Shown here: positions 31,303 to 51,072 of the stretch, piece by piece
Numbering within the stretch: position 1 is the stretch's first letter
Layout: each line of letters begins with the position of its first letter
Assembly: GCF_001485575.1 (NCBI RefSeq)
Contig: NZ_BCNB01000006.1
Span: 558,001 to 622,000, forward strand
Origin: Haloarcula sp. CBA1127
Lineage (GTDB): Archaea; Halobacteriota; Halobacteria; Halobacteriales; Haloarculaceae
DNA: 64,000 nucleotides
Direction: 5' to 3'
Notes under the pieces: generated by a model
What the model was told of the DNA's origin: nothing
Database searches by the model: none
Seen by the model: only the letters and a program-made list of their open reading frames with translations
Position numbers and translations under genes: made by a program

Positions 31303-32889
31303 ATGAAGGTACTCGTTACGGACCCTATCGCTGATGCCGGTCTCACGCGACTCCGTGAGGCGGGCCACGACGTCGAAACTGCCTACGAGGTCGAGGGCGA
31401 CGCGCTCCTCGACGCGGTGGCCGACGCGAACGCGCTCATCGTCCGCTCGGGCACCGAGGTCACCGAGGAAGTGTTTGCGGCCGCGTCCGACCTCATCATC
31501 GTCGGCCGGGCCGGTATCGGTGTCGACAACATCGACATCGACGCCGCCACGGATCACGGCGTCATCGTCGCCAACGCCCCCGAAGGCAACGTCCGCGCCG
31601 CCGCAGAACACTCCGTCGCAATGGCGTTTGCCACTGCCCGGTCCATCCCACAGGCCCATGACCGCCTGAAAAGCGGTGAATGGGCCAAAGGCGAGTTCCT
31701 CGGCACGGAAGTCAACAACAAGACGCTTGGCGTCGTCGGCTTCGGCCGCGTCGGCCAGCAGGTCGCCAAACGGCTGGGCGGCCTCGGCATGGACATCGTC
31801 ACGTTCGACCCGTACATCAGTCAGGAGCGCGCCGACCAGTTCGGCGCGGAACTGGTCGATGACCTTGAGGACTGTCTCGCCAAGTCCGACTTCATCACGA
31901 TCCACACGCCGCTGACCCCCGAAACCGAGAACATGATCGGCGAGGACGAACTCGCCCTGCTCGACGGCGGCTACGTCGTCAACTGTGCCCGCGGCGGCAT
32001 CATCGACGAGCCGGCCCTGGCCGAAGCGGTCGAAGACGGTGTCCTGAAGGGCGCAGCGCTCGACGTGTTCGGCGAGGAACCCCTGCCCGATGACAGCCCA
32101 CTGCTCGACGTTGAGGACATCATCGTCACGCCCCACCTGGGCGCGTCGACGGAGGCGGCACAGGAGAACGTCGCCACCTCCACGGCCGACCAGATCATCG
32201 CCGCGGCCAACGGCCAGCCCGTCGCCAACGCCCTGAACGCGCCGTCGCTGGACGAGGCGACGTTCAAACAGGTCGGGCCGTACCTCGACCTCGCCGACAC
32301 CGCCGGCCGCATCGCGGTCCAGTTGTTCGGCGGCCATATGTCCGAAGTGCAGGTCACCTACGCCGGCGACATCGCCGAGGAAGACGTAGAGTACGTCACC
32401 GCCAGCGCGCTGAAGGGTGTGTTCGCGCCCTCGGACCTGCAGGTCAACGCCGTCAACGCCCCGCAGATTGCCAAGGACCGTGGCATCGATGTGACCGAGT
32501 CCAAGACCCGAACCTCCGAAGACTACCAGAGCCTCATCACCGTCACCGTCTCCGACGGCGAGGAATCCGTCTCCGTCTGTGGGACCCAGTTCGGCGGCGA
32601 GGAGCCCCGCATCGTCCGTATCGATGACCACCGCATCGAGGCCGTCCCCCACGGGCATATGCTGGTCGTCCGCAACCGCGACGAGCCCGGCACTATCGGC
32701 TTCATCGGGACGGTTCTGGGCGAGGCCGATATCAACATCGCCGGGATGTTCAACGGCCGCGAGACCATCGGCGGGGAGGCCCTGTCCGTCTACAATCTCG
32801 ACGAACAGCCGCCACAGGAGATCATCGAGCGGCTTAACGGCGACAGCCGCATCATCGAAACGACCTACGTCGAACTCGGCGACGAGTAA
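31303..32889 (+). CDS. serA: D-3-phosphoglycerate dehydrogenase
   Basis: A 528-aa enzyme for the first step of serine synthesis (3-phosphoglycerate to 3-phosphohydroxypyruvate, NAD-dependent). Visible: GRAGIGVDNIDIDAAT, the NAD site GVVGFGRVGQQVAKRLG, active-site VNCARGGIIDEPAL and APHLGAST-type TPHLGASTEAAQEN. The intervening domain (about 320-450) and a C-terminal ACT domain (VVRNRDEPGTIGFIGTVLG), which usually mediates serine feedback inhibition, make it the long type. SerB is in the same window at 12662. Confidence 0.95.
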   Translation: MKVLVTDPIADAGLTRLREAGHDVETAYEVEGDALLDAVADANALIVRSGTEVTEEVFAAASDLIIVGRAGIGVDNIDIDAATDHGVIVANAPEGNVRAAAEHSVAMAFATARSIPQAHDRLKSGEWAKGEFLGTEVNNKTLGVVGFGRVGQQVAKRLGGLGMDIVTFDPYISQERADQFGAELVDDLEDCLAKSDFITIHTPLTPETENMIGEDELALLDGGYVVNCARGGIIDEPALAEAVEDGVLKGAALDVFGEEPLPDDSPLLDVEDIIVTPHLGASTEAAQENVATSTADQIIAAANGQPVANALNAPSLDEATFKQVGPYLDLADTAGRIAVQLFGGHMSEVQVTYAGDIAEEDVEYVTASALKGVFAPSDLQVNAVNAPQIAKDRGIDVTESKTRTSEDYQSLITVTVSDGEESVSVCGTQFGGEEPRIVRIDDHRIEAVPHGHMLVVRNRDEPGTIGFIGTVLGEADINIAGMFNGRETIGGEALSVYNLDEQPPQEIIERLNGDSRIIETTYVELGDE

Positions 32890-32921
32890 CACAGCAGAAT
32901 TTTCCGACAGCCGGGTACGGG

Positions 32922-33137
32922 TTATTCCCCGTGGAGAAGGCGCTCGTACCGGTCGACGACGGCCTGACGGTGTTCGCGTTCCTGTTTGAGCGCGGTTTCC
33001 AGCGTGGCCACCTGTGAGCGCAACAGCGCGATCTGTATCTGATAGATCGTGCTGGGCGTCTGTCGGGGCGACGGTAACGGGGTCCCCGACCGGTCCCCGG
33101 AGTCGAACGACGGCGCTGAATCGCGGGACGAGGCCAT
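32922..33137 (-). CDS. 71-aa coiled-coil protein
   Basis: After a polar, disordered N-terminal third (MASSRDSAPSFDSGDRSG) the rest is one amphipathic helix (YQIQIALLRSQVATLETALK, then QEREHRQAVVDRYERLLHG) that should form a coiled coil. ATG at 33137. No family assigned. If the integrative element is removed, this gene lies directly downstream of the PolD large-subunit gene on the same strand, so it may originally have been co-transcribed with it. Confidence 0.6.
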   Translation of the reverse strand: MASSRDSAPSFDSGDRSGTPLPSPRQTPSTIYQIQIALLRSQVATLETALKQEREHRQAVVDRYERLLHGE

Positions 33138-33230
33138 ACCCGTGACAGGACCGCCACGGGCAAAAACACCCGTCGGACGGCTGTCACGCGCCCGTCTGCC
33201 ACCCTGATGAATCCGGGTGGCCGTTATCGC

Positions 33231-33270
33231 TCACATGAAGTCCGCGATACCTGACTGCTTGTTGTGGTCG
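33231..33270 (-). pseudogene. Displaced native 3' end of the PolD large-subunit gene
   Basis: Read on the minus strand, these bases encode DHNKQSGIADFM and a TGA stop. The live polC gene at 46461 ends DHNKPTSLGDFM. Codons align without gaps, and 9 bp (33262-33270 against 46492-46500) are identical. QSGIADFM fits the PCNA-interacting-peptide pattern Q-x-x-I-x-x-F-M expected at the end of archaeal DP2. I read it as the original gene end, cut off by integration. Confidence 0.7.
33259..33270. repeat. attL: Left attachment core
   Basis: TTGTTGTGGTCG. The last nine bases are identical to the right core; across twelve bases there is one difference. To its left is chromosomal sequence, to its right element sequence. 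Confidence 0.6.
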
Positions 33271-33346
33271 AACCAGCCCATGACGTGTGGGGATTCTCCG
33301 GCACTACTATGCGCGTTGAATATGAAAGGTGGAGTGGGTCAAGGGC

Positions 33347-34651
33347 ATGACCACTCCAAGAGAAAAATACGAACGACGACTTGAAACGTTTAACGAATAC
33401 GTCGAATCCGGCGAAATAGACCCAGAGACGGCCGATGCAGTTAGAGAATTGGTGCGCGCTTACGACGACCACAACGTGATGGTGTCGTGTCCGTCGGGAG
33501 AAAGCACCAGAACGCCCGGAACGTTGATGTCGTGGCTCTATCGCCTGGCACAGTTCGCTCGCAACCGCGACTTGACCGAAGCCACGCTAAACGACCTGAA
33601 AGGCGATATGCAGGCGATGCACGACGGCTCACACCCGTATGTCGACAAAAACGGTGGTATCACCAAAGGGACGCTTCGCTCGTATCAGGCGGCGCTACGC
33701 AAGTTCTATCGGTATCATGAGTTTGGTGTCGACCCAGACGAGATTCCGATTCATTCCAAATCCGCCTCGCCAGTCGACCCGAACGACATGCTCACGAAGG
33801 AGGAGATAAACGAGGCGCAAGAAGCTGCTTCCAACGCCCGCGACAGGGCACTGTTCGACCTGCTGCTGTATACCGGCCAGCGGCGTGAGGCGATACGCAC
33901 GCTACGTCTGAAGGATGTTGATGTGCAAGAAGGCACGTACCGACTCAATCCCAATGTGGACGGTCTCAAAGGCGCACAGGACCGGAACGGAAAGCGGCCG
34001 CTACTGGGTGCGAAGGGCGCACTACAGAACTGGCTGGACTATCACCCAGATACGTCGGAGCCAGAGAACTACCTGATTACCGCTCGCCCCAGCTACGCCG
34101 CTGTTGACCCCAGCGACCCCGTATCTGGCGAGACTATCCGCAGGGTAATGTCCGAGATTAAGGAAGAGACCGACATTGAAAAGCCGATGCACCCCCACGC
34201 CTTACGGCATAATTTCGTGACAATTGCGAAGCGGGACCACAACCTACCCGATGATACGATAAAGTATCTCATCGGACATGACGACTCCAGTCAGGTGATG
34301 GAGACCACGTATTCGCACCTCTCTGGCGACGACCACATAAAACGGGCCGAAGAGGGGTGGGGAATACGCGAACCAGACGACGAATCCCCACTCTCGCCGG
34401 ATGTGTGTGGTGTCTGTGGCAATCCGATCGAACCGAACGCAAAGGCTTGCTCTCGGTGTGGGACGGTCTACACGCCCGACGCACGCGGTGCGATAGACCA
34501 AATAGAGGAGACGATCAGCGACGAAAAAGAACAGGCCGAGACGCTGGAAGAGTACAAAGACGCCGACGCTATCGCGCAGGCGCTCGACGACGACCCGAAA
34601 CTGGCGGCCGAGCTGATGGACAAGTTGGGCGAATTGTCTGACGACAGCTAA
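33347..34651 (+). CDS. Tyrosine recombinase (integrase) with C-terminal zinc ribbon
   Basis: 434 aa from the ATG at 33347 (MTTPREKYERRL). An N-terminal SAM-like core-binding domain (about residues 60-135) precedes the catalytic domain with the full set: Arg in LYTGQRREAIRTL, Lys in LKGAQDRNGKRP, HPHALRHNF (HxxR), IGHDDSSQV and the tyrosine in METTYSHL. A zinc ribbon (CGVCGNPIEPN, ACSRCGTVY) and an acidic helical tail follow. It begins 77 bp inside the left attachment core. Likely catalyses integration or excision; division of labour with the second recombinase is unknown. Confidence 0.9.
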   Translation: MTTPREKYERRLETFNEYVESGEIDPETADAVRELVRAYDDHNVMVSCPSGESTRTPGTLMSWLYRLAQFARNRDLTEATLNDLKGDMQAMHDGSHPYVDKNGGITKGTLRSYQAALRKFYRYHEFGVDPDEIPIHSKSASPVDPNDMLTKEEINEAQEAASNARDRALFDLLLYTGQRREAIRTLRLKDVDVQEGTYRLNPNVDGLKGAQDRNGKRPLLGAKGALQNWLDYHPDTSEPENYLITARPSYAAVDPSDPVSGETIRRVMSEIKEETDIEKPMHPHALRHNFVTIAKRDHNLPDDTIKYLIGHDDSSQVMETTYSHLSGDDHIKRAEEGWGIREPDDESPLSPDVCGVCGNPIEPNAKACSRCGTVYTPDARGAIDQIEETISDEKEQAETLEEYKDADAIAQALDDDPKLAAELMDKLGELSDDS

Positions 34652-40159: not shown

Positions 40160-40222
40160 GTTTCTCTATCATTCCGGAAAGGTGGTAAAAAGGGGCGGCC
40201 AGGCGGGATATTGAATGGTTCT

Positions 40223-40238
40223 TGCGTTTCTAAACGCA
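40223..40238. promoter_or_regulatory. Palindrome TGCGTTT/AAACGCA (possible operator)
   Basis: Seven-base arms with a 2-nt centre, located between the two divergent element operons and about 65 bp from the leftward start codon. A related longer palindrome occurs at 45736-45761, before the second recombinase. Confidence 0.5.
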
Positions 40239-40331
40239 CAATAGAGGCGCTAAGAATACTGTTTAGGATTGATGCGACCCAGGGTTTTATCACAGATGCG
40301 GGATCGGGCTTCGGTATAGCAGGAGAACAGA

Positions 40332-40412
40332 CGCACCGCTTGTCGGTGTGAAGGCTGGCCGGGTGGGAACCGGCCGCAGAACGCTATTGGCAATTCGAGC
40401 TACGTTCTGCGG
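40332..40412. other. Three consecutive hairpins between divergent operons
   Basis: In the 301-bp gene-free region (40160-40460): CACCG/CGGTG (40334-40348), GGCCGG/CCGGCC (40357-40375), and a perfect 10-bp stem CCGCAGAACG/CGTTCTGCGG with a 19-nt loop (40374-40412). It could be a replication origin for the excised element, a recombination site or a structured leader RNA. It does not fold as a tRNA. Confidence 0.55.
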
Positions 40413-40460
40413 CATCTTAGTACCCGAGGGCCAGGCAAGTCTGTCCCTGCGCCCGAAAAA

Positions 40461-40730
40461 ATGAGCACGAATCACGCTTCGCAGGACTTGACGGCGAACC
40501 CTACCAAAGACGCACCGTCAAGCCCTGAGCGGGATGGTCGTGAGACCACCCAGAGCGACGATAGCAGAGATAGTGACAATAACCCACCGAATCACGGAGT
40601 GCCGACCCACGGAACGGGGCGGTTTCTGTGGGAATGTGACCCGCGAACGCCCGTCGACGAACTCGGCGAGCTGTATGACCGCTGGAAAGACGACAGTGAG
40701 CAGGCCGACCTTGGAGAGTGGTCCGAATGA
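40461..40730 (+). CDS. 89-aa element protein, first gene of the rightward operon
   Basis: ATG at 40461 (MSTNHASQDLTANPTKDA). The N-terminal half is disordered and polar; the C-terminal half has a compact-looking stretch (TGRFLWECDPRTPVDELGEL, YDRWKDDSEQADLGEWSE) rich in Trp and Asp. No family recognised. Its stop overlaps the next start by 4 bp (ATGA), the first in a chain of overlaps running through the whole rightward operon. Confidence 0.6.
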   Translation: MSTNHASQDLTANPTKDAPSSPERDGRETTQSDDSRDSDNNPPNHGVPTHGTGRFLWECDPRTPVDELGELYDRWKDDSEQADLGEWSE

Positions 40731-40927
40731 GCGGTCCGAACGTCGATTGCCCGCAGTGTGGCGGCCAGCTGCAGGCGACGAACGACCCCGAGAGTTTCCG
40801 CTGCCGCAGTTGTGACCGGGAACTCCGCCAGGTGGTGCTCGAAAATCTGGATTCGTTCCGGCGTGTCGCTGAATCCGACGGACCGGCGGCTGAGATCGCG
40901 GCCGCGGCGCTGGAGGGGACGCAATGA
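40727..40927 (+). CDS. 66-aa zinc-ribbon protein
   Basis: ATG at 40727, overlapping the previous stop. MSGPNVDCPQCGGQLQATND and FRCRSCDRELRQ form a CxxC...CxxC zinc ribbon followed by a helix (VVLENLDSFRRVAESDG). One of three small zinc-binding proteins encoded in a row; possibly transcription or DNA-binding adapters of the element. Confidence 0.65.
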   Translation: MSGPNVDCPQCGGQLQATNDPESFRCRSCDRELRQVVLENLDSFRRVAESDGPAAEIAAAALEGTQ

Positions 40928-41148
40928 GCGGTGCGCGGAGCCCGCAGTCTGGACAGAAACGCGACTGGCCGCACCTGCAGAGGGAGCACTTGGAGGCGCA
41001 CAAGAAGGGCGCTGCCGGAAAACTGCAGCCCACGTTGGAACGGAGAGAGGCCTGGTGCAAGGAGTGCGCGAACCGCGTGACCTGCGGCAGCAAGGAATGG
41101 GGGCACGACCCGGACTGTTCGCACCGTTTCGCGGGAGGGGTCCGATGA
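40924..41148 (+). CDS. 74-aa Cys/His-rich protein
   Basis: ATG at 40924, ATGA overlap with the preceding gene. A basic N-terminal half (WPHLQREHLEAHKKGAAGKL) precedes a Cys/His cluster (AWCKECANRVTCGSKEWGHD, then DCSHRF) that could hold one zinc. The basic composition is unusual for a haloarchaeal protein and suggests nucleic-acid binding. No family recognised. Confidence 0.6.
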   Translation: MSGARSPQSGQKRDWPHLQREHLEAHKKGAAGKLQPTLERREAWCKECANRVTCGSKEWGHDPDCSHRFAGGVR

Positions 41149-41273
41149 ACGGACCGAACACGGTGGATACCAGCGAGGACTGCCCCACCTGCGGCCGCTC
41201 CATCTCCACCCAGTCCCAGGCCCTGCTCGACGACGACGGATGCCCGTTCTGCCGGGGTGGTAAGGATGACTGA
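41145..41273 (+). CDS. 42-aa zinc-ribbon micro-protein
   Basis: ATG at 41145, again an ATGA overlap. MNGPNTVDTSEDCPTCGRSI and GCPFCRGGKDD give CPTC and CPFC knuckles 19 residues apart, a minimal zinc ribbon with almost nothing else. Its coding context, in a chain of coupled genes, makes chance unlikely. Confidence 0.6.
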   Translation: MNGPNTVDTSEDCPTCGRSISTQSQALLDDDGCPFCRGGKDD

Positions 41274-41478
41274 GACGGCTACCTTACTAGACCCTTTCGC
41301 GGGGGATGAGCGAAGCGAGAGCCTGTTTTATATACCCCCAGCGAACAAGGGTGATGTTGGCGAAGGGATCGCGGGGGCAGGAAGTGTCAGGCCGACTATC
41401 TCTATCGGCTCACCCCACGAGGAAGGGTCTATAGAATGGGCCAGCCTGTCCGTTCGTGAGGGTCCTGCTCATGACTGA
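41266..41478 (+). CDS. 70-aa element protein
   Basis: ATG at 41266, overlapping the previous gene by 8 bp (ATGACTGA), and its stop overlaps the next gene by the same ATGACTGA. MTETATLLDPFAGDERSESL, then IPPANKGDVGEGIAGAGS; no motif recognised. Coupling on both sides is the main evidence that it is translated. Confidence 0.5.
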   Translation: MTETATLLDPFAGDERSESLFYIPPANKGDVGEGIAGAGSVRPTISIGSPHEEGSIEWASLSVREGPAHD

Positions 41479-42646
41479 CGACGAACAGGACCAAAGTAAC
41501 GCGGACGCTACCCCAGCGGAACGGGCCCGGGATGCGATGAAAACCGCTGTCGGTGAGCTGGAGGAAGCTCACGCGGACGCTGATAACGCGGCAGCGGCGG
41601 GGATAGCCGAACAGGAGCAGGTGAGCGCGTTCGTTGACGAGATAGCGCGGGCGCTGGCCGATGGGATGAATCAGCCGGTGGGCGCGTTCGCCGGCCCCGT
41701 CGCTCAACAGACTGAGTTCTTCACGAAAACTGATTTGAAACAGCAAATCAAGGACGCGGTTGAGGAGCACCGCGGTGCGGACAAGCAGCCCCTCGACGAA
41801 TTTGTTGAAGAACGGTTAGAGTCGGTGACAGTCGTCAAAACGACGGACCACCGCCAGGGCGCTGAATACATTTGGGACTTCGGCACGTTCAAAGTCGAAA
41901 CCCGCAGCGGGAAGGACGGACGCGGCCATTTCGCTTTCCCGCAATTCCGCGACCTGATTCATGAGTCGGGCGGTGTGAACACCGCAAAACCGGTTCAGGA
42001 CCGGCGAGGCGGTGAGGAATGGCGGGACTTCGTGGTTGACATGATAGACGCCCGCGGGGACACTCAATACACGCGAGGCGCGCGCACAAAGGCCGTCGAG
42101 GCGCTGCAAAACAAGGTGAAACGGCTGACCGGCTACGGAACGCCGGAAAGTGCTCTTGACCACACCGGAATCTGGATCGTCCGTGTCAGCCACAACCTGC
42201 CCGATTGGTGGGCGGACCTGCCGGCTGATTTCAGCGACCCCACGGACGGGCGGGACCTGCCGGACGCCCTCGTAAATGAGGTTCGCGTCCATGAATCGGT
42301 GATTGAGCCCATCCTAGACGACGCTGAGATTACGCGGGCAGCGTTCTACCACGAGCTGAACGCTCGGAACCTCACAGTCCCCGGAACGTCCGGCGCGTCT
42401 ATGAGCAAGTGGGTGAACGGCAGCGATGAACGGTTTTGGACGCTGTTGCCAGACCTGGGGACGCCACGGACCTACGTACCCGACCCGAACGCGGGCGTTA
42501 CGGTCCGTCAAGGCTCGGCGCTCCTTGACGATGGACAGGACGAGCAGGGCGATGAAACACAGGAAGCTACGGAACCCGTCGAATCGGGCGCTGATGACGC
42601 CCAGGACGGCGGTGACGGGTTCAATAGCGTTGGTGATACTGCATGA
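41471..42646 (+). CDS. 391-aa element protein upstream of the helicase
   Basis: ATG at 41471 (MTDDEQDQSNADATPAERAR). N-terminal helices (about 15-90) are followed by a mixed region with YIWDFGTFKVETRSGKDGRG and HFAFPQFRDLIHESGGVNTA, then helical segments (AITRAAFYHELNARNLTVPG-like) with a possible winged helix near 290-330, and an acidic tail. I cannot assign a family. Position directly before helicase and prim-pol, with an ATGA overlap, suggests a replication initiator or DNA-binding factor; this is inference. Confidence 0.65.
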   Translation: MTDDEQDQSNADATPAERARDAMKTAVGELEEAHADADNAAAAGIAEQEQVSAFVDEIARALADGMNQPVGAFAGPVAQQTEFFTKTDLKQQIKDAVEEHRGADKQPLDEFVEERLESVTVVKTTDHRQGAEYIWDFGTFKVETRSGKDGRGHFAFPQFRDLIHESGGVNTAKPVQDRRGGEEWRDFVVDMIDARGDTQYTRGARTKAVEALQNKVKRLTGYGTPESALDHTGIWIVRVSHNLPDWWADLPADFSDPTDGRDLPDALVNEVRVHESVIEPILDDAEITRAAFYHELNARNLTVPGTSGASMSKWVNGSDERFWTLLPDLGTPRTYVPDPNAGVTVRQGSALLDDGQDEQGDETQEATEPVESGADDAQDGGDGFNSVGDTA

Positions 42647-44508
42647 GTAACCTGAGCTTAGGCGATATTGAGATTACCGGAATCGACGAACGTGCAGCAG
42701 ACGAGAGCGTGAAACTGAACGGGCCGCCCGGGACCGGGAAAACCACCGAAAGCGCGGCCAGAGTGGCGCGGCTACTTGATGATCATGATTACCAGCTCGG
42801 AGATGTGCTTTGGGCGACTTACCGCCACTCGCTCGCTATGGAGACCCTCGAACGTCTCGCCGACTGGGGGATAATCCCTGAGGGCGAGCTTTCGGACCCG
42901 GCAGACGGACCCACGCGCTACATAGCGACCACCCACGCTTGCGCGAACCGTATGGTGGGCGGTGTCGGGGACATGGCGACGTGGTACGACCGAAAACAGT
43001 TTGCTGAGGGGCGTAGCCTGAGGTTCGACAAGCGTAATCCGTGGGACGATCCGCCGGGACAGCTACTCTTTCAGGTTTTCGACTACGCCGCGAACAACCT
43101 GTTAAACCTGCAGGAACAGACGGACCGCGAGCAAATCCCCATGATGGATGACCTACGGGACAAATACCCCGGTGACGTGGCGCGGGCGTTCGACGATTGG
43201 CAGGACTACAAGGCTCAAAACGACAAATTCGACTTTTGGGAGCAGTTGCGCGCCCCGATAGACCAGGGTGTCCAGGCGAACAAGGACGTGGTTGTTATCG
43301 ACGAATACCACGACGCTACGCCCCTCATGGCGAAGCTTAGCGAACGGTGGATAAAACAGGCTGAGGTGGCAATAGTCGCGGGGGACCCGCTACAGGTGGT
43401 TAACACCTACGCGGGCGCGGACCCCGAGTTTTTCGAGCGGTTGGACGTGCCTGAGGTTCTCCTACCGAAAGCTCACCAGCGCCCGCCCCGGCAGCATTGG
43501 GCGGCAGCGGCGGCGGTGTTAGAGAACGCCCACCAGCGCCCACCTGTCGAGATCGACAATTCTGGTTCGTTCCACGCTGGCAGCTCGCCCCGGATCAGTC
43601 ACTCCGGCGAAAACGGTTGGAACGTCCCAAGCCCCGATACGCCCCGTTCGCCCGCGCACATGGTGGAAAACTACGGAACGGACATGATGTTTCTAACCCG
43701 GACCCAGCGACAGGCGGCAGGCGTGGCGAGGGCGCTGGAAAAGGCGGGGATATTGTTTGAGGTTCAAAACAGTATGGACGTGGACGGATGGGGAGCGAAA
43801 GAGGATATGGCGGAACGGACGGCCCTGTATAACGCGCTACAGCGCCTTGACGGAGTAACGCCCGAAAGCGGCGGTGGGTCCGGCCTGTTGGCCTACAGCG
43901 CCGACGACAGCGAGGGAACGCGCCCGGCGGACCTGAGGCTACGGGCGCGAGAGGCGGCGGCTATCCTTGACCATACGAACCACCAATACCTGAGCGAGTC
44001 CCGTTCGGACGTGACGCAGGCGGCGAACGAGATCGTGAACGCTGAGGTGGTGGTTCACGGCGACGAGCTGAACGAATACGTCGAGGCGGAGTTTTGGGAC
44101 GTTTACACGCGGGGCAGCGGGTCGGTCCGTCACCTAAACAACTCAGGGGCGTCCGATCTCGGCAGCGCGATAGACGACCGGGACCGCGAGGCGCTGAAAG
44201 CCGCGCTGAGCCGGAACGACGACCCCGTTAGAGGCGTCGAGACTAAGGTTTACACTATCCACGCCTCGAAGGGTAGCGAGGCGAAGAACGTGGTTGTGTA
44301 CGACGGGATAACCCGGACCATAGAGGACGGGATGTTAGAGAGTGAGAAAGCTCGAAAGAACGAATACCGGACGTGGTACGTCGCCCTCACGCGGTCGAGG
44401 GCAAACCTGTTCGTACTGCGGGATGCGTTCGAGTGGACTAGCCCATTCCTGCCCGAGACGTTGTTAGATGCTGCTAAAGAGGCGCACGAACGGGGGGCGA
44501 GCGCATGA
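42643..44508 (+). CDS. SF1 helicase, UvrD/Rep-like
   Basis: 621 aa. Motif I LNGPPGTGKTTESAARVA; motif Ia region ATYRHSLAMETLERL; motif II VVIDEYHDATPLM (DEYH rather than DExx); motif III VAGDPLQVVNTYAGADP; motif IV FLTRTQRQAAGVARAL; motif V VYTIHASKGSEAKNVVVYDG; motif VI RTWYVALTRSRANLFVL. These fit 3'-5' SF1A helicases, somewhat shorter than UvrD (about 720 aa). Coupled by ATGA overlaps to the 391-aa gene and the prim-pol, forming a self-contained replication module. Confidence 0.9.
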   Translation: MSNLSLGDIEITGIDERAADESVKLNGPPGTGKTTESAARVARLLDDHDYQLGDVLWATYRHSLAMETLERLADWGIIPEGELSDPADGPTRYIATTHACANRMVGGVGDMATWYDRKQFAEGRSLRFDKRNPWDDPPGQLLFQVFDYAANNLLNLQEQTDREQIPMMDDLRDKYPGDVARAFDDWQDYKAQNDKFDFWEQLRAPIDQGVQANKDVVVIDEYHDATPLMAKLSERWIKQAEVAIVAGDPLQVVNTYAGADPEFFERLDVPEVLLPKAHQRPPRQHWAAAAAVLENAHQRPPVEIDNSGSFHAGSSPRISHSGENGWNVPSPDTPRSPAHMVENYGTDMMFLTRTQRQAAGVARALEKAGILFEVQNSMDVDGWGAKEDMAERTALYNALQRLDGVTPESGGGSGLLAYSADDSEGTRPADLRLRAREAAAILDHTNHQYLSESRSDVTQAANEIVNAEVVVHGDELNEYVEAEFWDVYTRGSGSVRHLNNSGASDLGSAIDDRDREALKAALSRNDDPVRGVETKVYTIHASKGSEAKNVVVYDGITRTIEDGMLESEKARKNEYRTWYVALTRSRANLFVLRDAFEWTSPFLPETLLDAAKEAHERGASA

Positions 44509-45728
44509 AATTCCCGTTCGAGGAGTTGTATTATCTGAAGGCCCGGGGGCCGGACGATAAACGGCCCGCTGAGGCGTGGGGCGGGTATGACGAGCCGCTG
44601 AGTGAGAACAGCGACGTTTACAACCACGACGATCTGACGAAACTGCCGGGCGAAACGTGGCTACTCAATGGTATCCGCGATAAGGAACACATGAGCCACA
44701 AGCTGCTGATATTCGACCTGGATATTCACAAAGCGCCGGATAGTTTCGACCCGGACAGGGTGACAATCCCCGACGACACGCCGATAGTTAGGAGTCAAAA
44801 CGGCGGTTTCCACGTCTATTTTGTCGTGAACACGCCCACGACCGGCAAGGAGTCGGACTTTCAGGCGGTCGACGAGCTGCCGTTTGGGATAGACGTTCGG
44901 GGCGAATATGTGAAACATCACGTCGTAGCCCCGAACGACGTTCCGGGCGTTTCGAGCGGGTACGACGTGGTGAACGACGAGACGATTAACCACGTATTCG
45001 ACCCCGCTGAGGCGGCAGAGAGTATCAAACTCGACGGGGAACCGGCGTTAGTCCACAACCCCGGTTGTTCGGGAGCTGGGGGCTACGAACGCGACGAGAT
45101 AGACCCGCCGGACGACCTGCCGAAGTGCTACGCCGCCGGGCTGTCGCTGCGGAAAGAAGCCCCTGACGACGAGAACCTTAACACGCATAAAGTGAACGTG
45201 CTAACGGGCATGCTGGGGCTTGCGGCCGGGTATAGCGTCGACGATGTGGTTACGCACTTCGTCGAGGATTATTATCCTGGCGACCCCGACGACGCCGACC
45301 GAGAGCGGACGACGTACCACGTCGAAGATATCGCCGAACGGCTTGATAACAGGTACTCGCCGCCGGCCGTCTCGACCCTCAAAGAGTACGGCATACTCCC
45401 GAAAGACGAGTCGTGCACCTGCGGCCTCCCAGGCCATACGCAGGAGAATATGGCCAAATCCGACTATTACAACGCCGGCCTCGAAGGCGTGGCACGGGCG
45501 GAGGGTTACGGTGATCCGTTCGAGGACAACTTGGCGATGTTGAAAACCTGCCTCAAAGTCCGGGAAGAGACTGGATTAGCAGACGCTAAGCCGCCTTACT
45601 CAGCGCTGCAGGCTGTCGCAGACCATTGCGGGCTGAACATGGAGGACCGCGAAGAGGGCATCTTAGGAAAGTCGAGTTACAAAGTGGCGCGAAGAATATT
45701 CGACGACCTGGCTCCCGGCGACCTGTGA
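44505..45728 (+). CDS. Prim-pol type primase/polymerase
   Basis: 407 aa. The N-terminal archaeo-eukaryotic primase fold carries LLIFDLDIHKAPDSF (metal-binding D-x-D), then NGGFHVYFVVNTP (the G-x-HVY motif) and PFGIDVRGEYVKHHVVAP (D-x-R with following histidines), the three motifs of plasmid and virus prim-pols. The C-terminal part has a Cys/His pair (SCTCGLPGHTQ) and helices, without a fused helicase; the separate SF1 helicase upstream may supply that role. It would prime or copy element DNA. ATGA overlap with the helicase gene. Confidence 0.85.
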   Translation: MKFPFEELYYLKARGPDDKRPAEAWGGYDEPLSENSDVYNHDDLTKLPGETWLLNGIRDKEHMSHKLLIFDLDIHKAPDSFDPDRVTIPDDTPIVRSQNGGFHVYFVVNTPTTGKESDFQAVDELPFGIDVRGEYVKHHVVAPNDVPGVSSGYDVVNDETINHVFDPAEAAESIKLDGEPALVHNPGCSGAGGYERDEIDPPDDLPKCYAAGLSLRKEAPDDENLNTHKVNVLTGMLGLAAGYSVDDVVTHFVEDYYPGDPDDADRERTTYHVEDIAERLDNRYSPPAVSTLKEYGILPKDESCTCGLPGHTQENMAKSDYYNAGLEGVARAEGYGDPFEDNLAMLKTCLKVREETGLADAKPPYSALQAVADHCGLNMEDREEGILGKSSYKVARRIFDDLAPGDL

Positions 45729-45844: not shown

Positions 45845-46450
45845 ATGCGCACCGAACGAAACAAAGACGGCACGTTCAATGTGTGGCTCAGTCGCGACGA
45901 GTACCGCGAGCTGCCGCGGGCGACTGATACATTTCAACAGGAGATCGCCCTACGGTTGATGGGCGACTGTGGCCTGCGGGTCGCGGAGGTGCTCGACGTG
46001 ACACCCGCCCATATCTCGCGGCGGTCGGATGGGACGCATTTTGAACTTGAGGTAGTGGCTGGAAAGGATACCACGGGCTCTTACTCTGGGGGTAAGCACC
46101 GAGAGACATGGCTCCCCCGCGAGTTCGAGGCCCAAATCAACCGCTATCGCCAGGAAAAGGGAATAGCCGACGGTGAGCCGCTCGTCGACAGAGCGAAGCG
46201 GACCGTACAGGATTGGGTCGACCGCGCGGCCGACCAGGCGGCCGAGAGCACAGGCGACGGTGATTACCGGCGGGTGTCGAGCCACGATCTCCGGCGATGT
46301 TGGGCGAATCACCTGCTGGTAGAAGAGAACGTTTCGCCCCGCATCGTTATGGCTCTCGGCGGCTGGTCGAGTTACGACGCCATAGAGCCGTATCTCGCCG
46401 CTCCTACCGAGGGGAATATCAATCAGTCAATGTCTGAGGTTAACCTGTAA
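45845..46450 (+). CDS. Compact tyrosine recombinase (catalytic domain only)
   Basis: 201 aa from the ATG at 45845 (MRTERNKDGTFNVWLSRDEY). Catalytic residues: Arg in GDCGLRVAEVLDV, basic SGGKHRETWLP, SSHDLRRCWANHLL (HxxR), and Tyr in ALGGWSSYDAIEPYL with Trp in place of the second His. The N-terminal core-binding domain of typical integrases is missing, as in some haloviral recombinases. It ends 10 bp before the polC stop and about 40 bp from the right attachment core. Probably the enzyme that recognises this site. Confidence 0.85.
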   Translation: MRTERNKDGTFNVWLSRDEYRELPRATDTFQQEIALRLMGDCGLRVAEVLDVTPAHISRRSDGTHFELEVVAGKDTTGSYSGGKHRETWLPREFEAQINRYRQEKGIADGEPLVDRAKRTVQDWVDRAADQAAESTGDGDYRRVSSHDLRRCWANHLLVEENVSPRIVMALGGWSSYDAIEPYLAAPTEGNINQSMSEVNL

Positions 46451-46460
46451 CTATTGCCGG

Positions 46461-49400
46461 TTACATGAAATCCCCAAGGCTCGTGGGTTTATTGTGGTCG
46501 TTCTCGAATACCGACTCAATCTTCCGTTCCAGTATCTTGAGCCGCTGTTTCGTGTAGTCCCGTGCGCCGAACTCGTCGGCGACGCGGATGGCTGTGTCGA
46601 TGTACTTGTTGACCGACCCCTCGTGGACGGTGAGGTTGACGCGGCCGCCACACTCCCGGCAGTCGCCGGTCAGTGGCGCGCGGCGGAACGACTCCCCGCA
46701 GTCGAGACACCGGACCTCCTGTCTGGAGAAGGCCCGGAGGTTGCCGATGAGGTCCGGCAGGAAGTGGTACTCGATGATGCGTTCGGCCACGTCGCTCTCG
46801 ACGACGGCCCGCAGTTTTCGGGAAATCTCCAGCTGGGCGTCCATCTTGTCCTCCATTGAACCGAGCGTCTTGTACGCCGAGAGGTCCGGCCCGGCGGCGA
46901 TGTTCGCCGTGTCGTGGGTGTGGCGGAACTCGGTGTACTCGCGGTCGGTCCCCAGCGTCTCTTCGGCGATTTTCATCACGTCCTCGACCTCGGTCGGGTC
47001 TTTCATCTCCCGCGTGGCCTCGTAGAACTCGCGGGGATAGGCGTCCATGATGTCCATGTTGTGGGCCTCGTCGTCGATCTCGCTGGGGTCGATGCGCGAG
47101 GACATCACCAGGGGTGCATCCATCTGGCCGCCACGCTGGTTCGGGAGATACGACTTCGAGAAGTTCAGCAGGCCGTCCATCAGGAGCATCACACAGTCCT
47201 CGTCGCCGTCGCACTGGCCGACGTAGGTGCCTTCGACGGCAACCCGGTGCGTGTCGGCAACCGTGAGACAGTAGACATAGTCCACGTCGCTCTCGACGTA
47301 CTCGACAGCCTCGACGGTGTCTGTCGGGGCTGCGCCGTCGGTAGCCGCCGTCGAGGCCTCGCCGCGTGCCGTCATCGTGGTCGTCTCGCCGCCGTCGTAG
47401 GCAGGGAGGTCGTCGCCGGCGGCTAAATCGCTGGCCGGGACCTCCTCGATCCCGTCGGGACCGGCCCGGAGCATCGTGTGGTCGGGCGTGACCCGGAGCG
47501 TCCGGTCGCCAACGGTTACTTCCACGAGGTGGTCCGGCGCGGGGTGTTTCGAGACGGCGTCGACGGGCTGGCGACAGGGGCCGTTTTCGCCAAGTGATGA
47601 CACCGTGAGGTCGCCGTCTAACTCCTGAACGAGCGTTCCGAAGTCGTCCTCTTGGGGGTCGTGCAGCCGGTTTTCGACCAGTTCCTCGATGGTGCCGTAT
47701 TCCCAGTTGCCATCCTCATCCTCGTACCACAGCCGGGTGTCCGGATGGAAGCAGTTCCGTCGCTTGGCGGCGTGGAAGTACGGATGCGCATAGCCGACGG
47801 CGGCGGAGGTGAAGCCGACCACGCGGCCGACCGTCGCCGCGCTGGTGTGGGGGGCCATTCCGAACACGAGTTCGCCGACGAGGTCCTCGCGGTCGTCGAA
47901 CTCGTAGAACCGCTCCAGCCCGTAGTACTGCTCTAGAAGGTCGTCGACGAAGCGGGCAGTCTGGAGCATGTGCTCGGCCGCGCCGTTCGAGAGGACGATA
48001 TCCTGTACCTTTAGCTCGACCAGTTGGTCCTCGTGGGTCAGCGGGTCGCCGTGGATGTCCTCTGTGTAGCCCAGTCCTCGTAGTCGCTCGGCAGAGACAT
48101 CCAGTTCCGAGGCTCGGACCGCCGTCACCGGTAGGTCCGTCATATCGTAGCGGACCGTGCCGTCCTTGAACGCCGACACGTCGTGTTTCGCCCGGAGGAT
48201 ACCCTTCTCCATCGGCTCCGGGACCTTCTCCTCGGAGGTGAGCCCCTTGACCGCTTTCAGTTGCTCGAAGGCCGTCTCGCGCTCGCCGACGTTCTGCAGG
48301 GCGTCCCGATACGCTTCTTGCAGGTCGAGCACCTTGTACTGGGTCGGCGAGGCGAGCGTCTCACACCGGGAACACTCCGCGCGGCCGGACTCGTCGCGCT
48401 CGACCTCGGCTTCGCAGTCGGGACAGACGTACACCGGTTCGGTGGTCCCGCCACAGTCGGGACAGCCCGCCTGGTGGGTCTCGGTCCCGCAGTCGGGACA
48501 GCGCCGCCGGGCTACTTCGACTTCGACGCGGCCGGGCGTGTCGCTCATGTCGTCGGCGTGTTTCGTCGCCTTGGCCACGTCTCGCTGTGCCCCGCCGGCC
48601 TCGCCGATGGGGCTGAGCGTGTGGACGGCCGGCGAGAGGTCCCGACGCTCTGATTTCTCGGGACGGCCCATCCGGTTGCCGATGCGGGTTGGGGCACGCT
48701 CCCGGACCTGGAACGGCGCGATCTCGTTGACCGCTTTGATGGCGTTCTGACCGTCTTCTTGCTCGGCGTCTTCGGCAACGCCGATGGCGTCGACCGACTC
48801 GCTCTCGCCGTAGGTCTGCGCGTGCTCGGAGAGGTCCGACGGTGTCCAGTCCCGCTCTAGTGACCGGGAGAACCCCAGTGTCCGTACCAGCGGTACCCAG
48901 TCGGTGACCGTAATCGTGTCCTCGTCTTGGGTGTGCTCGATGAGTAGGTGTTCCAGCGTCTGCTGGACGGCGTCGCTCCGTGACAGGACGAGCGCGCCGT
49001 CGTCACTGTGTGCGTCGCCCGCTGTGCCGTCCATCTCTGGGTCGGCGTACGCACCGTCGGCCTGCGCGACCTGTGCGTCCTCGACGGCGGCGGCGAGCGC
49101 ACACACCTGGTCGACGCTCACGTCGTGCCAGAGGTAGGTGTATTTCGGATGCAACGGGACGTCGTACTCGGTCGCCCACTCGATAGCTTCCTCGGCGCTC
49201 GGGTCGGCGAGGTCGATGTGGGGCGAGTCCTGCATCGCCTGCACGTCCGCGCCGGCGGCGTCGAGGTCCTGCTCCCACCACTCGACGGTGTAGGAGGCCG
49301 GTGCGAGCGGATGGTTGTTCTCGACGAACTCGCCGTAGTTGACCAGATACTCACCGAGGTCGAGTATCTTCTCGACGCCGTTGCGGACTGCCAGTGCCTC

Positions 49401-50648
49401 CTCGGCGTCGTCGATGCGCCGCACGTCGCCGTTGGCCAGGCGCACGGTCGGCCCCTCGATGGTGTCGACTGGCACGACGCCAGCAGCCTTCCCCGGCCGC
49501 TCGGTCTTGATCTGAGTTCCGGTCGCGAGGAAGTCGTCGACGAGATGCATCGTCGCCGGGTGGACGCCGGCGGTCGCGAAGCCGTGGTTACGCGACCGGC
49601 CGTAGCGAAGGCGGAACCCGCCCGCCTTCGACGGGTGGGAGAACACCGGGCGGCCGGCGATGAGGTCCCGGAGGTATTTGTCGGCGGGGTCGACCCGCGG
49701 CGGTCCAGCCTCCTCCTCAGCGTCGTCCCCGTCGTCGTTGTCCGCGCCATCACCACCGTCGTCGCTGTTCGCGTCTTCCGAGCCGTCCTCTTGGTCCGCT
49801 TCGTCCTTGCCGATGGTCCCGTCAATGAGGTCCTGGAGCCACGGCCAGTCGACCTCGTCTAGGTTCCGGGTGTAGCGCTGGATCTTCGGCGCTTTCAGCG
49901 CGATGCCCTCTGCCAGCACCAGACACATCCCGCCCCGCGGGGAGTTCGAGTCGACGCGTTCGAGGTCCCGGTAGCCCGACACCTCCTCGTCGCCGGTCGC
50001 CTCGCCGTCGAGCATGATGGGCATGTTCTCGGCGATGAACTTCGTCTCCTTCTCCTTTGGCGAGTACTGGAGGCCGGTATCCTTGTCGTAGAGGTCGATC
50101 TCCTCGGCGTAGCGACCGATCTCTTCCTCGCGGGCCTTGTACTGGTCGATGCCCAGCAGCGCACGAGCGTAGTCGGCGACCAGCACCGAGAGTGCCTGCG
50201 CTGTCCCGCCGGCAGAGCGAATCGGGCCGGCGTAGTAGACGTTGATGAACTCCGTCCCGTCGTCGTTCTCCAGCAGTTCCACGCGGTCGATGCCCTCGAT
50301 AGGGGCGGCGACGACGCCTTCAGTCAGCAGCGCGACGGCAGTCCGGACCGCGCCCTCGACTTTCCCCTCGCGGCTGTCGTAGTCGCCGACAGTCCCCTCC
50401 ACGAAGTCCTCGACCAGTTCCAGTGCGGCTTCTTCGCGGGACATCTGTCCTTCCAGTTCCCGCACTCGCTCAGCAACACCGTCGATGCCGAGGATGTTCT
50501 CGACTCGGTCGGCCATGTCACGGGCGGTCGGAATCTCGACTTCTGGCTTCGGGTCGCCACCGCGCTCTTTAGCCCGCTCGGCGACGTCGAAGGCGGCTTC
50601 GAGCTGGGTTTCGAGCGTTTCGAAGTACTGTTCGTCGGCCTCCCGCAT
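46461..50648 (-). CDS. polC: DNA polymerase D large subunit (DP2) with mini-intein
   Basis: 1395 aa from the ATG at 50648 (MREADEQYFETLETQ), about 1215 without the intein; the catalytic subunit of the replicative polymerase. N-terminal conserved blocks (FINVYYAGPIRSAGGTAQAL), an acidic insert near residues 280-330, zinc clusters CPDCGTETHQAGCPDCGG and RCLDCGESF ... CRECGG, and the active-site region with FHAAKRRNC|DGDEDCVMLLMDG, the two carboxylates of DGDED lying right after the intein. The final codons are supplied by the integrative element. Downstream of and almost touching the PPC gene. Confidence 0.95.
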   Translation of the reverse strand: MREADEQYFETLETQLEAAFDVAERAKERGGDPKPEVEIPTARDMADRVENILGIDGVAERVRELEGQMSREEAALELVEDFVEGTVGDYDSREGKVEGAVRTAVALLTEGVVAAPIEGIDRVELLENDDGTEFINVYYAGPIRSAGGTAQALSVLVADYARALLGIDQYKAREEEIGRYAEEIDLYDKDTGLQYSPKEKETKFIAENMPIMLDGEATGDEEVSGYRDLERVDSNSPRGGMCLVLAEGIALKAPKIQRYTRNLDEVDWPWLQDLIDGTIGKDEADQEDGSEDANSDDGGDGADNDDGDDAEEEAGPPRVDPADKYLRDLIAGRPVFSHPSKAGGFRLRYGRSRNHGFATAGVHPATMHLVDDFLATGTQIKTERPGKAAGVVPVDTIEGPTVRLANGDVRRIDDAEEALAVRNGVEKILDLGEYLVNYGEFVENNHPLAPASYTVEWWEQDLDAAGADVQAMQDSPHIDLADPSAEEAIEWATEYDVPLHPKYTYLWHDVSVDQVCALAAAVEDAQVAQADGAYADPEMDGTAGDAHSDDGALVLSRSDAVQQTLEHLLIEHTQDEDTITVTDWVPLVRTLGFSRSLERDWTPSDLSEHAQTYGESESVDAIGVAEDAEQEDGQNAIKAVNEIAPFQVRERAPTRIGNRMGRPEKSERRDLSPAVHTLSPIGEAGGAQRDVAKATKHADDMSDTPGRVEVEVARRRCPDCGTETHQAGCPDCGGTTEPVYVCPDCEAEVERDESGRAECSRCETLASPTQYKVLDLQEAYRDALQNVGERETAFEQLKAVKGLTSEEKVPEPMEKGILRAKHDVSAFKDGTVRYDMTDLPVTAVRASELDVSAERLRGLGYTEDIHGDPLTHEDQLVELKVQDIVLSNGAAEHMLQTARFVDDLLEQYYGLERFYEFDDREDLVGELVFGMAPHTSAATVGRVVGFTSAAVGYAHPYFHAAKRRNCFHPDTRLWYEDEDGNWEYGTIEELVENRLHDPQEDDFGTLVQELDGDLTVSSLGENGPCRQPVDAVSKHPAPDHLVEVTVGDRTLRVTPDHTMLRAGPDGIEEVPASDLAAGDDLPAYDGGETTTMTARGEASTAATDGAAPTDTVEAVEYVESDVDYVYCLTVADTHRVAVEGTYVGQCDGDEDCVMLLMDGLLNFSKSYLPNQRGGQMDAPLVMSSRIDPSEIDDEAHNMDIMDAYPREFYEATREMKDPTEVEDVMKIAEETLGTDREYTEFRHTHDTANIAAGPDLSAYKTLGSMEDKMDAQLEISRKLRAVVESDVAERIIEYHFLPDLIGNLRAFSRQEVRCLDCGESFRRAPLTGDCRECGGRVNLTVHEGSVNKYIDTAIRVADEFGARDYTKQRLKILERKIESVFENDHNKPTSLGDFM
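46489..46500. repeat. attR: Right attachment core inside polC
   Basis: TTATTGTGGTCG, identical over its last nine bases to 33262-33270. It spans the polC codons D-H-N-K. Bases to its left (46461-46490), which encode the last residues of the polymerase, are element-derived under this reading. Confidence 0.6.
47214..47753 (-). other. 180-aa mini-intein in DP2
   Basis: Begins at Cys (CFHPDTRLWYEDED) after AAKRRN and ends GTYVGQ before the extein CDGDEDC. Hint-domain blocks are present: LRVTPDHTML (block B with TxxH) and VYCLTVADTHRVAVEG (block F). The terminal residue is Gln and the penultimate is Gly instead of the usual His-Asn, as known for some PolII inteins. No homing endonuclease remains; only a short disordered stretch is in its place. 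Confidence 0.9.
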
Positions 50649-50649
50649 C

Positions 50650-51072
50650 TTAGATATTCCAGAGGTCCAGGTCGGTCGGCTCGTCGTGCTCCCGCTGGAG
50701 TTCCGTATCGAACCCGCGGACGTACAGTTCACCCGCCCAGACGGTACCGGCGTTCAGGTGGCCGGCGACCGCCTCGCCGTCGGGCCGCGAGAGGACGGCG
50801 TGCGTATGGGCGAACCGCTCCCCGTCGAGATGCGAGATATTACCCATACAGGCGGCGACCTCAAGCGGTTCATCGAAGGTCAGCGAGTCGTATTCGGTCC
50901 GGTCCTGGTCGTAGAACATGAGTTCCGCGTCCTGCACTGCCCCAAGCCCGTAGAAAAAGCCGGCGTCGATGCCCTGTTCGTCCGCGAAGGCCTCGATCTG
51001 CGCGCGCCAGTCCCCACCGTGCTCCAGTCGGCAGACGAACTCGGACGTACTGTCGACTTCGCGGTAATCCAT
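50650..51072 (-). CDS. PPC/DUF296 domain protein
   Basis: 140 aa from the ATG at 51072 (MDYREVDSTSEFVCR). It matches the PPC (DUF296) fold: GIDAGFFYGLGAVQDAELMF, then SHLDGERFAHTHAVLSRPDG, whose histidines form the conserved metal-binding cluster, and GHLNAGTVWAGELYVRG. In plants the fold occurs in AT-hook proteins; archaeal stand-alone versions are trimeric and of unknown role. Its stop is one base from the polC start, so it is co-transcribed with the replicative polymerase. Confidence 0.87.
   Translation of the reverse strand: MDYREVDSTSEFVCRLEHGGDWRAQIEAFADEQGIDAGFFYGLGAVQDAELMFYDQDRTEYDSLTFDEPLEVAACMGNISHLDGERFAHTHAVLSRPDGEAVAGHLNAGTVWAGELYVRGFDTELQREHDEPTDLDLWNI

Follow-up and report, generated by a model that had tools for sequence, protein, structure and literature searches.

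The window, by which we mean the whole 64,000-nt stretch of DNA analysed, is haloarchaeal by gene content, as are its order and family relatives, and carries an element of ~33.3–46.45 kb with one operon running leftward, one running rightward, and a tyrosine recombinase gene at either end (33329–34651 and 45845–46450; both matching Pfam Phage_integrase). A search for an attachment site found no common word of 12 or more bases between 32801–33400 and 46301–46700. Abutting the right end of the element on the minus strand (46461–50732) is a large gene that we take to resemble the large subunit of DNA polymerase D, apparently with an intein. The two operons diverge from a gap of 301 nt (40160–40460), and the hairpins described in the earlier note do lie in this non-coding space. 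Between the divergent promoters there is also a perfect 7-bp palindrome with a 2-nt spacer (TGCGTTTCTAAACGCA, 40223–40238), a possible operator. The rightward operon opens with orf89 and includes the helicase and prim-pol genes (Table 1); two small Cys-rich, zinc-finger-like ORFs follow 3' of orf89 on the plus strand (40728–40928 and 41145–41274), the second of which has 61–64% identity to its counterparts in two of the relatives introduced below (G024 and G067).

Table 1. Features of the proposed control module and of the rightward operon (positions in the window)
Feature	Position	Strand	Description
TATA-like box, rightward operon	40285..40291	+	TTTTATC; identified from sequence; about 28–34 nt 5' of P1
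Structured 5' leader	40319..40450	+	P1, H1, H2, H3 and a linker with CCAGGC (40413–40438); covariance model R1
H1	40334–40348	+	CACCG-CTTGT-CGGTG
H2	40357–40375	+	GGCCGG-GTGGGAA-CCGGCC
H3	40374–40412	+	CCGCAGAACG-(19 nt)-CGTTCTGCGG
orf89	40461..40730	+	89 aa; first gene of the rightward operon; no known family
P6'	40482..40527	-	Proposed antisense RNA: long hairpin with as many as 21 pairs, its apical loop (UGGU) forming part of a YUNR motif
P7'	40531..40551	-	Proposed antisense RNA: hairpin at its 5' end, with 8 pairs
TATA-like box, proposed antisense RNA	40578..40583	-	GTTATT; 27–32 nt 5' of P7'; predicted start ~40,553
UvrD-like helicase	42643..44508	+	Same operon as orf89; Pfam UvrD-helicase, 7.2e-13
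Prim-pol	44505..45728	+	Same operon as orf89; Pfam Prim-Pol, 1.3e-4, at the curated cut-off

A structured leader upstream of orf89

The three consecutive inverted repeats that had been placed at 40332–40412 were all located in the sequence, and H3 is the one noted for its perfect stem of 10 bp and loop of 19 nt. The interval itself proved too short on both sides: an outer helix, P1 (40319–40332 paired with 40439–40450), surrounds H1–H3 and ends 10 nt 5' of the orf89 ATG, and further covarying hairpins lie at 40482–40551, the whole module extending over ~40,285–40,585 and being larger than the three hairpins. Shuffled versions of 40312–40463 fold at a mean of -53.1 kcal/mol, and none of 200 folds as well as the real sequence, whose predicted energy is -72.3 kcal/mol (z -4.83). 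The full forms of H2 and H3 compete because they have two bases in common; the alternatives within the leader are H2, an extended H3, and a helix formed with the CCAGGC linker, and by our reading of the alignment of relatives H2 and the extended H3 each covary yet are mutually exclusive.

The module accompanies orf89 and precedes different replication genes

Among 146 family genomes searched at the DNA level there was one clear relative besides the window, in Halomicroarcula sp. SYNS111 (G024; E-value 1.3e-26, 90% identity over 40319–40412), the remaining matches having E-values of 0.01 or worse. A protein search with orf89 (E-values up to 0.001) found matches in seven of 391 class genomes: the window's own genome (G000), G024, Halorhabdus amylolytica (G067), Haloterrigena turkmenica (G344, where the match is on plasmid pHTUR06), G282, Halapricum hydrolyticum (G002) and, weakly, G058. 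The G058 match (34% identity, E-value 2.1e-4) had no leader and no hairpins and was dropped before covariation was counted. The module is thus found in six of 391 haloarchaeal genomes, from three families and always with an orf89 homolog.

The earlier suggestion that the rightward operon has a structured leader is borne out by these relatives, four in full and a fifth in part. In G024, G067, pHTUR06 and G282 the region from the promoter to the start codon folds as P1/H1/H2/H3, the stems having changed with complementarity kept, and TATA-like boxes stand at comparable positions as judged by eye; in H. hydrolyticum P1 and H1 are kept, the centre has diverged with no recognisable H2, and there is no match to the leader covariance model R1, so this sequence was retained for P1, H1 and the coding-region hairpins P6 and P7 described below. 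Counted manually from the inner end, six positions of P1 are paired in all 36 cells of the six sequences. The strand of the leader is less certain: by folding energy the plus strand is lower in five of the six sequences, pHTUR06 favouring the minus strand, and consensus folding of five sequences (H. hydrolyticum left out) gave -56.0 for the plus versus -57.6 for the minus strand.

Searched against the 391 genomes, model R1 identified five of the six members plus four weak matches (E-values 0.05–0.1) that we took as chance. We found ten prim-pol relatives besides that of the window and looked for the leader at the six best; the stems were absent from all six, R1 had no match there, and one of these loci (L043) had a weak orf89-like match of 36 residues (E-value 0.004). 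Because R1 finds five of the six orf89 members and none of the six examined prim-pol loci, the structure follows orf89 and not prim-pol, and the conservation that the earlier note had proposed to look for in related elements holds with orf89 and fails with prim-pol. The prim-pol operon of the G188 element has, 5' of its first genes, a long leader hairpin of another kind (GTTCCTGCTTAG...CTAAGCAGGAAC; L043 ~3080–3200, minus strand), perhaps a comparable but unrelated module.

The genes downstream of orf89 differ between members. The window, G024 and G067 have a UvrD-like helicase gene, accompanied in the window by prim-pol, and the genes after the helicase in G024 and G067 had no Pfam match; pHTUR06 and G282 have a D5-type primase-helicase, and H. 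hydrolyticum a PriCT-2 primase. A replication gene is therefore found downstream in all six members, in three kinds (co-transcription being read from gene order), so that one 5' module precedes different replication machinery. In the G024 element both recombinases are 90–91% identical to those of the window, and the cargo they enclose is mostly different; by sequence comparison, the two elements appear to have ends and RNA module in common with the middle swapped.

Other searches were negative or gave matches at the level of chance. Model R2 had weak matches in the 125 genomes of the family of G344, with only G344 strong, and the weak ones were taken as chance, as were the two stretches in viral contigs that fitted the pattern GGCCGGGTGGGAACCGGCC, which lay beside or inside helicase-coding regions of unrelated contigs. 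None of the 15 stretches fitting the pattern ACCCTACCAAAGAN{3,5}CCG scored better than an E-value of 1 with R2. No relatives were identified in viral contigs searched with prim-pol, orf89 and alignment A6, or in a phage collection by DNA and protein searches. The covariance models of Rfam 15 had no match in the region at E-values up to 5 in the window and up to 1 in the five relatives, and the idea of a tRNA-like structure or tmRNA was rejected as ARAGORN predicted 0 genes.

Hairpins on the strand opposite the start of orf89

The earlier note missed the part that lies on the opposite strand, and no other part is as informative. When the six loci were aligned past the start codon, two hairpins, P6' and P7', were seen to overlap orf89 codons 8–31. 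Read on the minus strand, 94.8% of their 174 cells (29 pairs in six sequences) are paired, against at most 48% when the partners are slid in the alignment. Sixteen of the 29 pairs have changed on both sides versus 7.0 in shuffles, none of 500 of which scored as high, a count that is not a probability as related sequences can exceed shuffles by descent. A covariance model of the minus-strand hairpins (R3) scored the six members at 81–96 bits among the 391 genomes; two others, G010 and G352, scored 29–30 bits and were taken as chance.

An A-C mismatch on one strand of a helix is a G-U wobble on the other, and the cells that depart from Watson–Crick pairing are strongly biased to one strand. The minus strand has 31 G-U cells, 1 A-C and 8 other non-pairs among the 174, or 17 G-U versus 1 A-C when distinct pair types are counted per column; the nearly invariant inner stem contributes 20 of the G-U cells, which are not independent, and 11 versus 1 remain for the outer stem and P7'. 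This wobble test favours the minus strand and led us to reject P6 and P7 as mRNA hairpins of the plus strand with GNRA loops. Folding energies agree in direction, being -42.9 to -50.4 kcal/mol for the minus and -31.7 to -37.8 kcal/mol for the plus strand, an advantage of 9–17 kcal/mol for the minus strand in all six sequences, and consensus folding gave -82.4 versus -66.2. The strand difference is unusual against shuffles in five of the six (at most 11 of 200 as extreme), G282 being the exception (44 of 200). The z scores of the minus strand range from -3.6 to -6.5, and P6/P7 has the lowest minus-strand z among 660 windows taken over the element, its plus-strand z ranking fourth. By our reading of the alignment a YUNR motif occupies identical columns of the P6' loop in all six sequences, and in five of them the loop is nearly invariant while the stems vary. 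The structures, their covariation, the strand bias and the co-occurrence with orf89 and with replication genes are all direct observations on these sequences.

The minus-strand TATA-like box stands at a constant spacing from P7', with no gap in any of the six sequences, and its sequence is similar in the relatives. A T-run at 40456–40461 is not common to the members, and the 3' end of the proposed antisense RNA is without a mark.

Coding constraint on orf89

At codons for the same amino acid, third positions are identical in 93 of 114 comparisons in codons 32–45, the region of the minus-strand TATA-like box, and in 38 of 52 comparisons for the P6 loop, both raised relative to codons 46–89 (154 of 307); these comparisons between relatives are not independent. 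Identity at codon positions 1, 2 and 3 is 0.61, 0.65 and 0.38 in codons 46–89, an ordinary coding periodicity, and 0.67, 0.67 and 0.56 over P6–P7, where the periodicity is less. AlphaFold2 prediction on six sequences had low confidence and no secondary structure in the first 50 residues of orf89, followed by two helices, and the end of the protein that carries the RNA is probably flexible. The N-terminal half can tolerate a second code because no secondary structure is predicted there, and it has apparently been shaped by the RNA on the opposite strand.

By its sequence the protein is hydrophilic, with D, E, N, P and T abundant, and a PHROGs scan found nothing significant for it. A type I toxin-antitoxin pair, in which a small hydrophobic toxin gene lies opposite an antisense RNA, does not fit, orf89 being hydrophilic by its sequence. 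In G024 (L042 9400–9417, minus strand) the conserved orf89 frame lacks an upstream ATG of its own, and the ATG that follows the leader is offset from this frame by one base; this copy may be decayed or may start elsewhere.

Alternative explanations for the hairpins

The earlier note had offered a replication origin beside the structured leader, and of these two candidates only the leader is supported. A DNA origin or single-strand priming site to which the prim-pol and helicase would bind once one strand is exposed, such as has been proposed for the 100-nt stem-loop of pRN1, would account for the replication genes in the same operon; the GC-skew analysis that had been suggested does place the cumulative minimum of the element at 40,175, but the operons diverge there too, and the minimum coincides with this divergence of genes. 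According to the accessible part of the pRN1 study, that plasmid requires its stem-loop, the fold of which is conserved and the sequence poorly so (PMC4234260), and single-stranded DNA could likewise give wobble pairs on one strand. However, the hairpins are missing from all six examined prim-pol relatives and yet stand upstream of unrelated replication proteins, they lie 5' of the genes and within a coding start, each of the two parts has a TATA-like box facing it, and a cruciform of both strands would not yield the excess of G-U over A-C cells; we therefore judge an origin unlikely.

We consider it quite unlikely that the module is a structured mRNA acting in cis only, with the leader and coding hairpins bound by a ligand or by a protein, for instance one of the replication proteins or orf89, to control translation, and the minus-strand signal a by-product. 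Such a role would suit the well-conserved leader fold that reaches to 10 nt before the start codon, the switch-like exclusion between the covarying H2 and extended H3, and the fact that P6/P7 also folds beyond chance on the plus strand (z -3.6 to -5.4). However, the eleven non-Watson–Crick cells of the plus-strand P6/P7 helices are ten A-C and one G-U, the opposite of what selection on a plus-strand RNA would leave, and the minus strand is the more stable in every sequence. Very improbable, finally, is a trans-acting small RNA directed against the host or rival elements, its position opposite orf89 being secondary: the loop core that is near-invariant in five of six members over varying stems would fit it, and halovirus phiH1 has a functional antisense RNA (PMC6210493, available part), but the RNA lies opposite orf89 in all six members, at a distance from the start that is fixed bar small indels.

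A proposed antisense RNA control of replication

Based on these features we lean, by a modest degree, towards a module that encodes an antisense RNA throttling the rightward replication operon of a mobile replicon, a reading for which the evidence base is the six members. We infer here antisense transcription, pairing, an effect on translation and a role in copy number. On the plus strand, the operon mRNA would begin with the leader (P1, H1–H3), whose fold stops 10 nt short of the orf89 ATG. The minus strand would yield a short antisense RNA that starts at ~40,553 and forms P7' first and P6' next, ending near or beyond the start codon; it would be complementary to orf89 codons 8–31 and perhaps more, and since the strand of the leader is less certain it may be longer and take in the leader helices. 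Pairing would begin at the YUNR loop of P6' and would seal the start-codon region, leaving the mRNA blocked or destabilised, with translation of orf89 lowered and that of the downstream replication genes lowered by coupling, so that more copies of the element would give less replication protein. The competing helices of the leader may in addition let pairing or translation switch its fold. Three traits of plasmid antisense control are present at sequence level in all six members, each having a predicted structured RNA opposite the start of the operon mRNA, YUNR in the loop that would serve for recognition and a replication gene under the mRNA that would be controlled. Copy-control loops usually diverge between incompatibility groups, in contrast to the P6' loop with its near-invariance in five of six; this counts against the proposal, as do the unmarked 3' end of the RNA, the frame of the ATG in G024, the doubt over the strand of the leader and the ordinary strand difference in G282.

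More tentatively, and with somewhat less than an even chance of being right, we speculate that an antisense RNA, a switching leader and a small protein make up a portable archaeal cassette that has been placed before at least three unrelated replication machineries in haloarchaeal plasmids and integrated elements, the flexible N-terminal half of the small protein doubling as the antisense gene. The module is compact, and its predicted antisense RNA has a defined start, so that how copy number is set in archaeal plasmids and integrated elements, in our judgement a largely open question, could be tested directly in a laboratory haloarchaeon; the module could also provide a tunable copy-number control for haloarchaeal vectors. 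If the proposal is true, replication control in archaea can be RNA-based and can move independently of the replication proteins, and the module would be the first case, within the literature that we searched, of an archaeal replicon whose copy number is controlled by an antisense RNA.

Comparison with known systems

Antisense control of copy number is well established for bacterial plasmids, CopA of R1 and the Inc RNA of ColIb-P9 being examples. Among archaea, a countertranscript has reportedly been claimed for Sulfolobus plasmid pIT3, and the antisense RNA of phiH1 was reportedly described by Stolt and Zillig in 1993. Our literature search, which covered few subscription papers, found no description of antisense-RNA control of replication in an archaeal replicon. 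The pL6-family haloarchaeal plasmids resemble the module in that both of their strands are transcribed, which in the module is predicted only; the part of that paper available to us calls the role of the antisense transcripts unexplored and does not mention a structured control RNA (PMC11431627), and the word antisense is not used in the available part of a paper on a methanoarchaeal plasmid (PMC9569500).

A haloarchaeal precedent for antisense RNA is that of halovirus phiH1 (PMC6210493, PMC6523106), which, in the accessible parts of these papers, concerns early transcription and immunity, unlike the module. Plasmid pRN1 is, like the element in the window, an archaeal replicon with a prim-pol and with a hairpin whose stem varies while pairing is kept; it differs, as far as the available part of the source goes, in that its one stem-loop, of 100 nt, lies 3' of the replication gene (PMC4234260), whereas the module has several hairpins, a wobble bias to one strand, and putative promoters. 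The arrangement of a pRN1-type origin, the main rival model, with one large stem-loop after the replication gene, is thus not what we found, the hairpins of the module being upstream.

The closest parallels are in arrangement, with the bacterial countertranscript systems, such as the control of pMV158 replication by RNAII with its YUNR motif (PMC4485353, accessible part). These have, like the module, a hairpin RNA encoded on the opposite strand at the start of the replication mRNA, a YUNR loop, a structured leader and replication genes downstream. We claim no likeness in sequence or in replication proteins, and the module differs from them in being archaeal, with TATA-like boxes of archaeal type, in overlapping the coding start of a small protein, and in having a strongly conserved loop.
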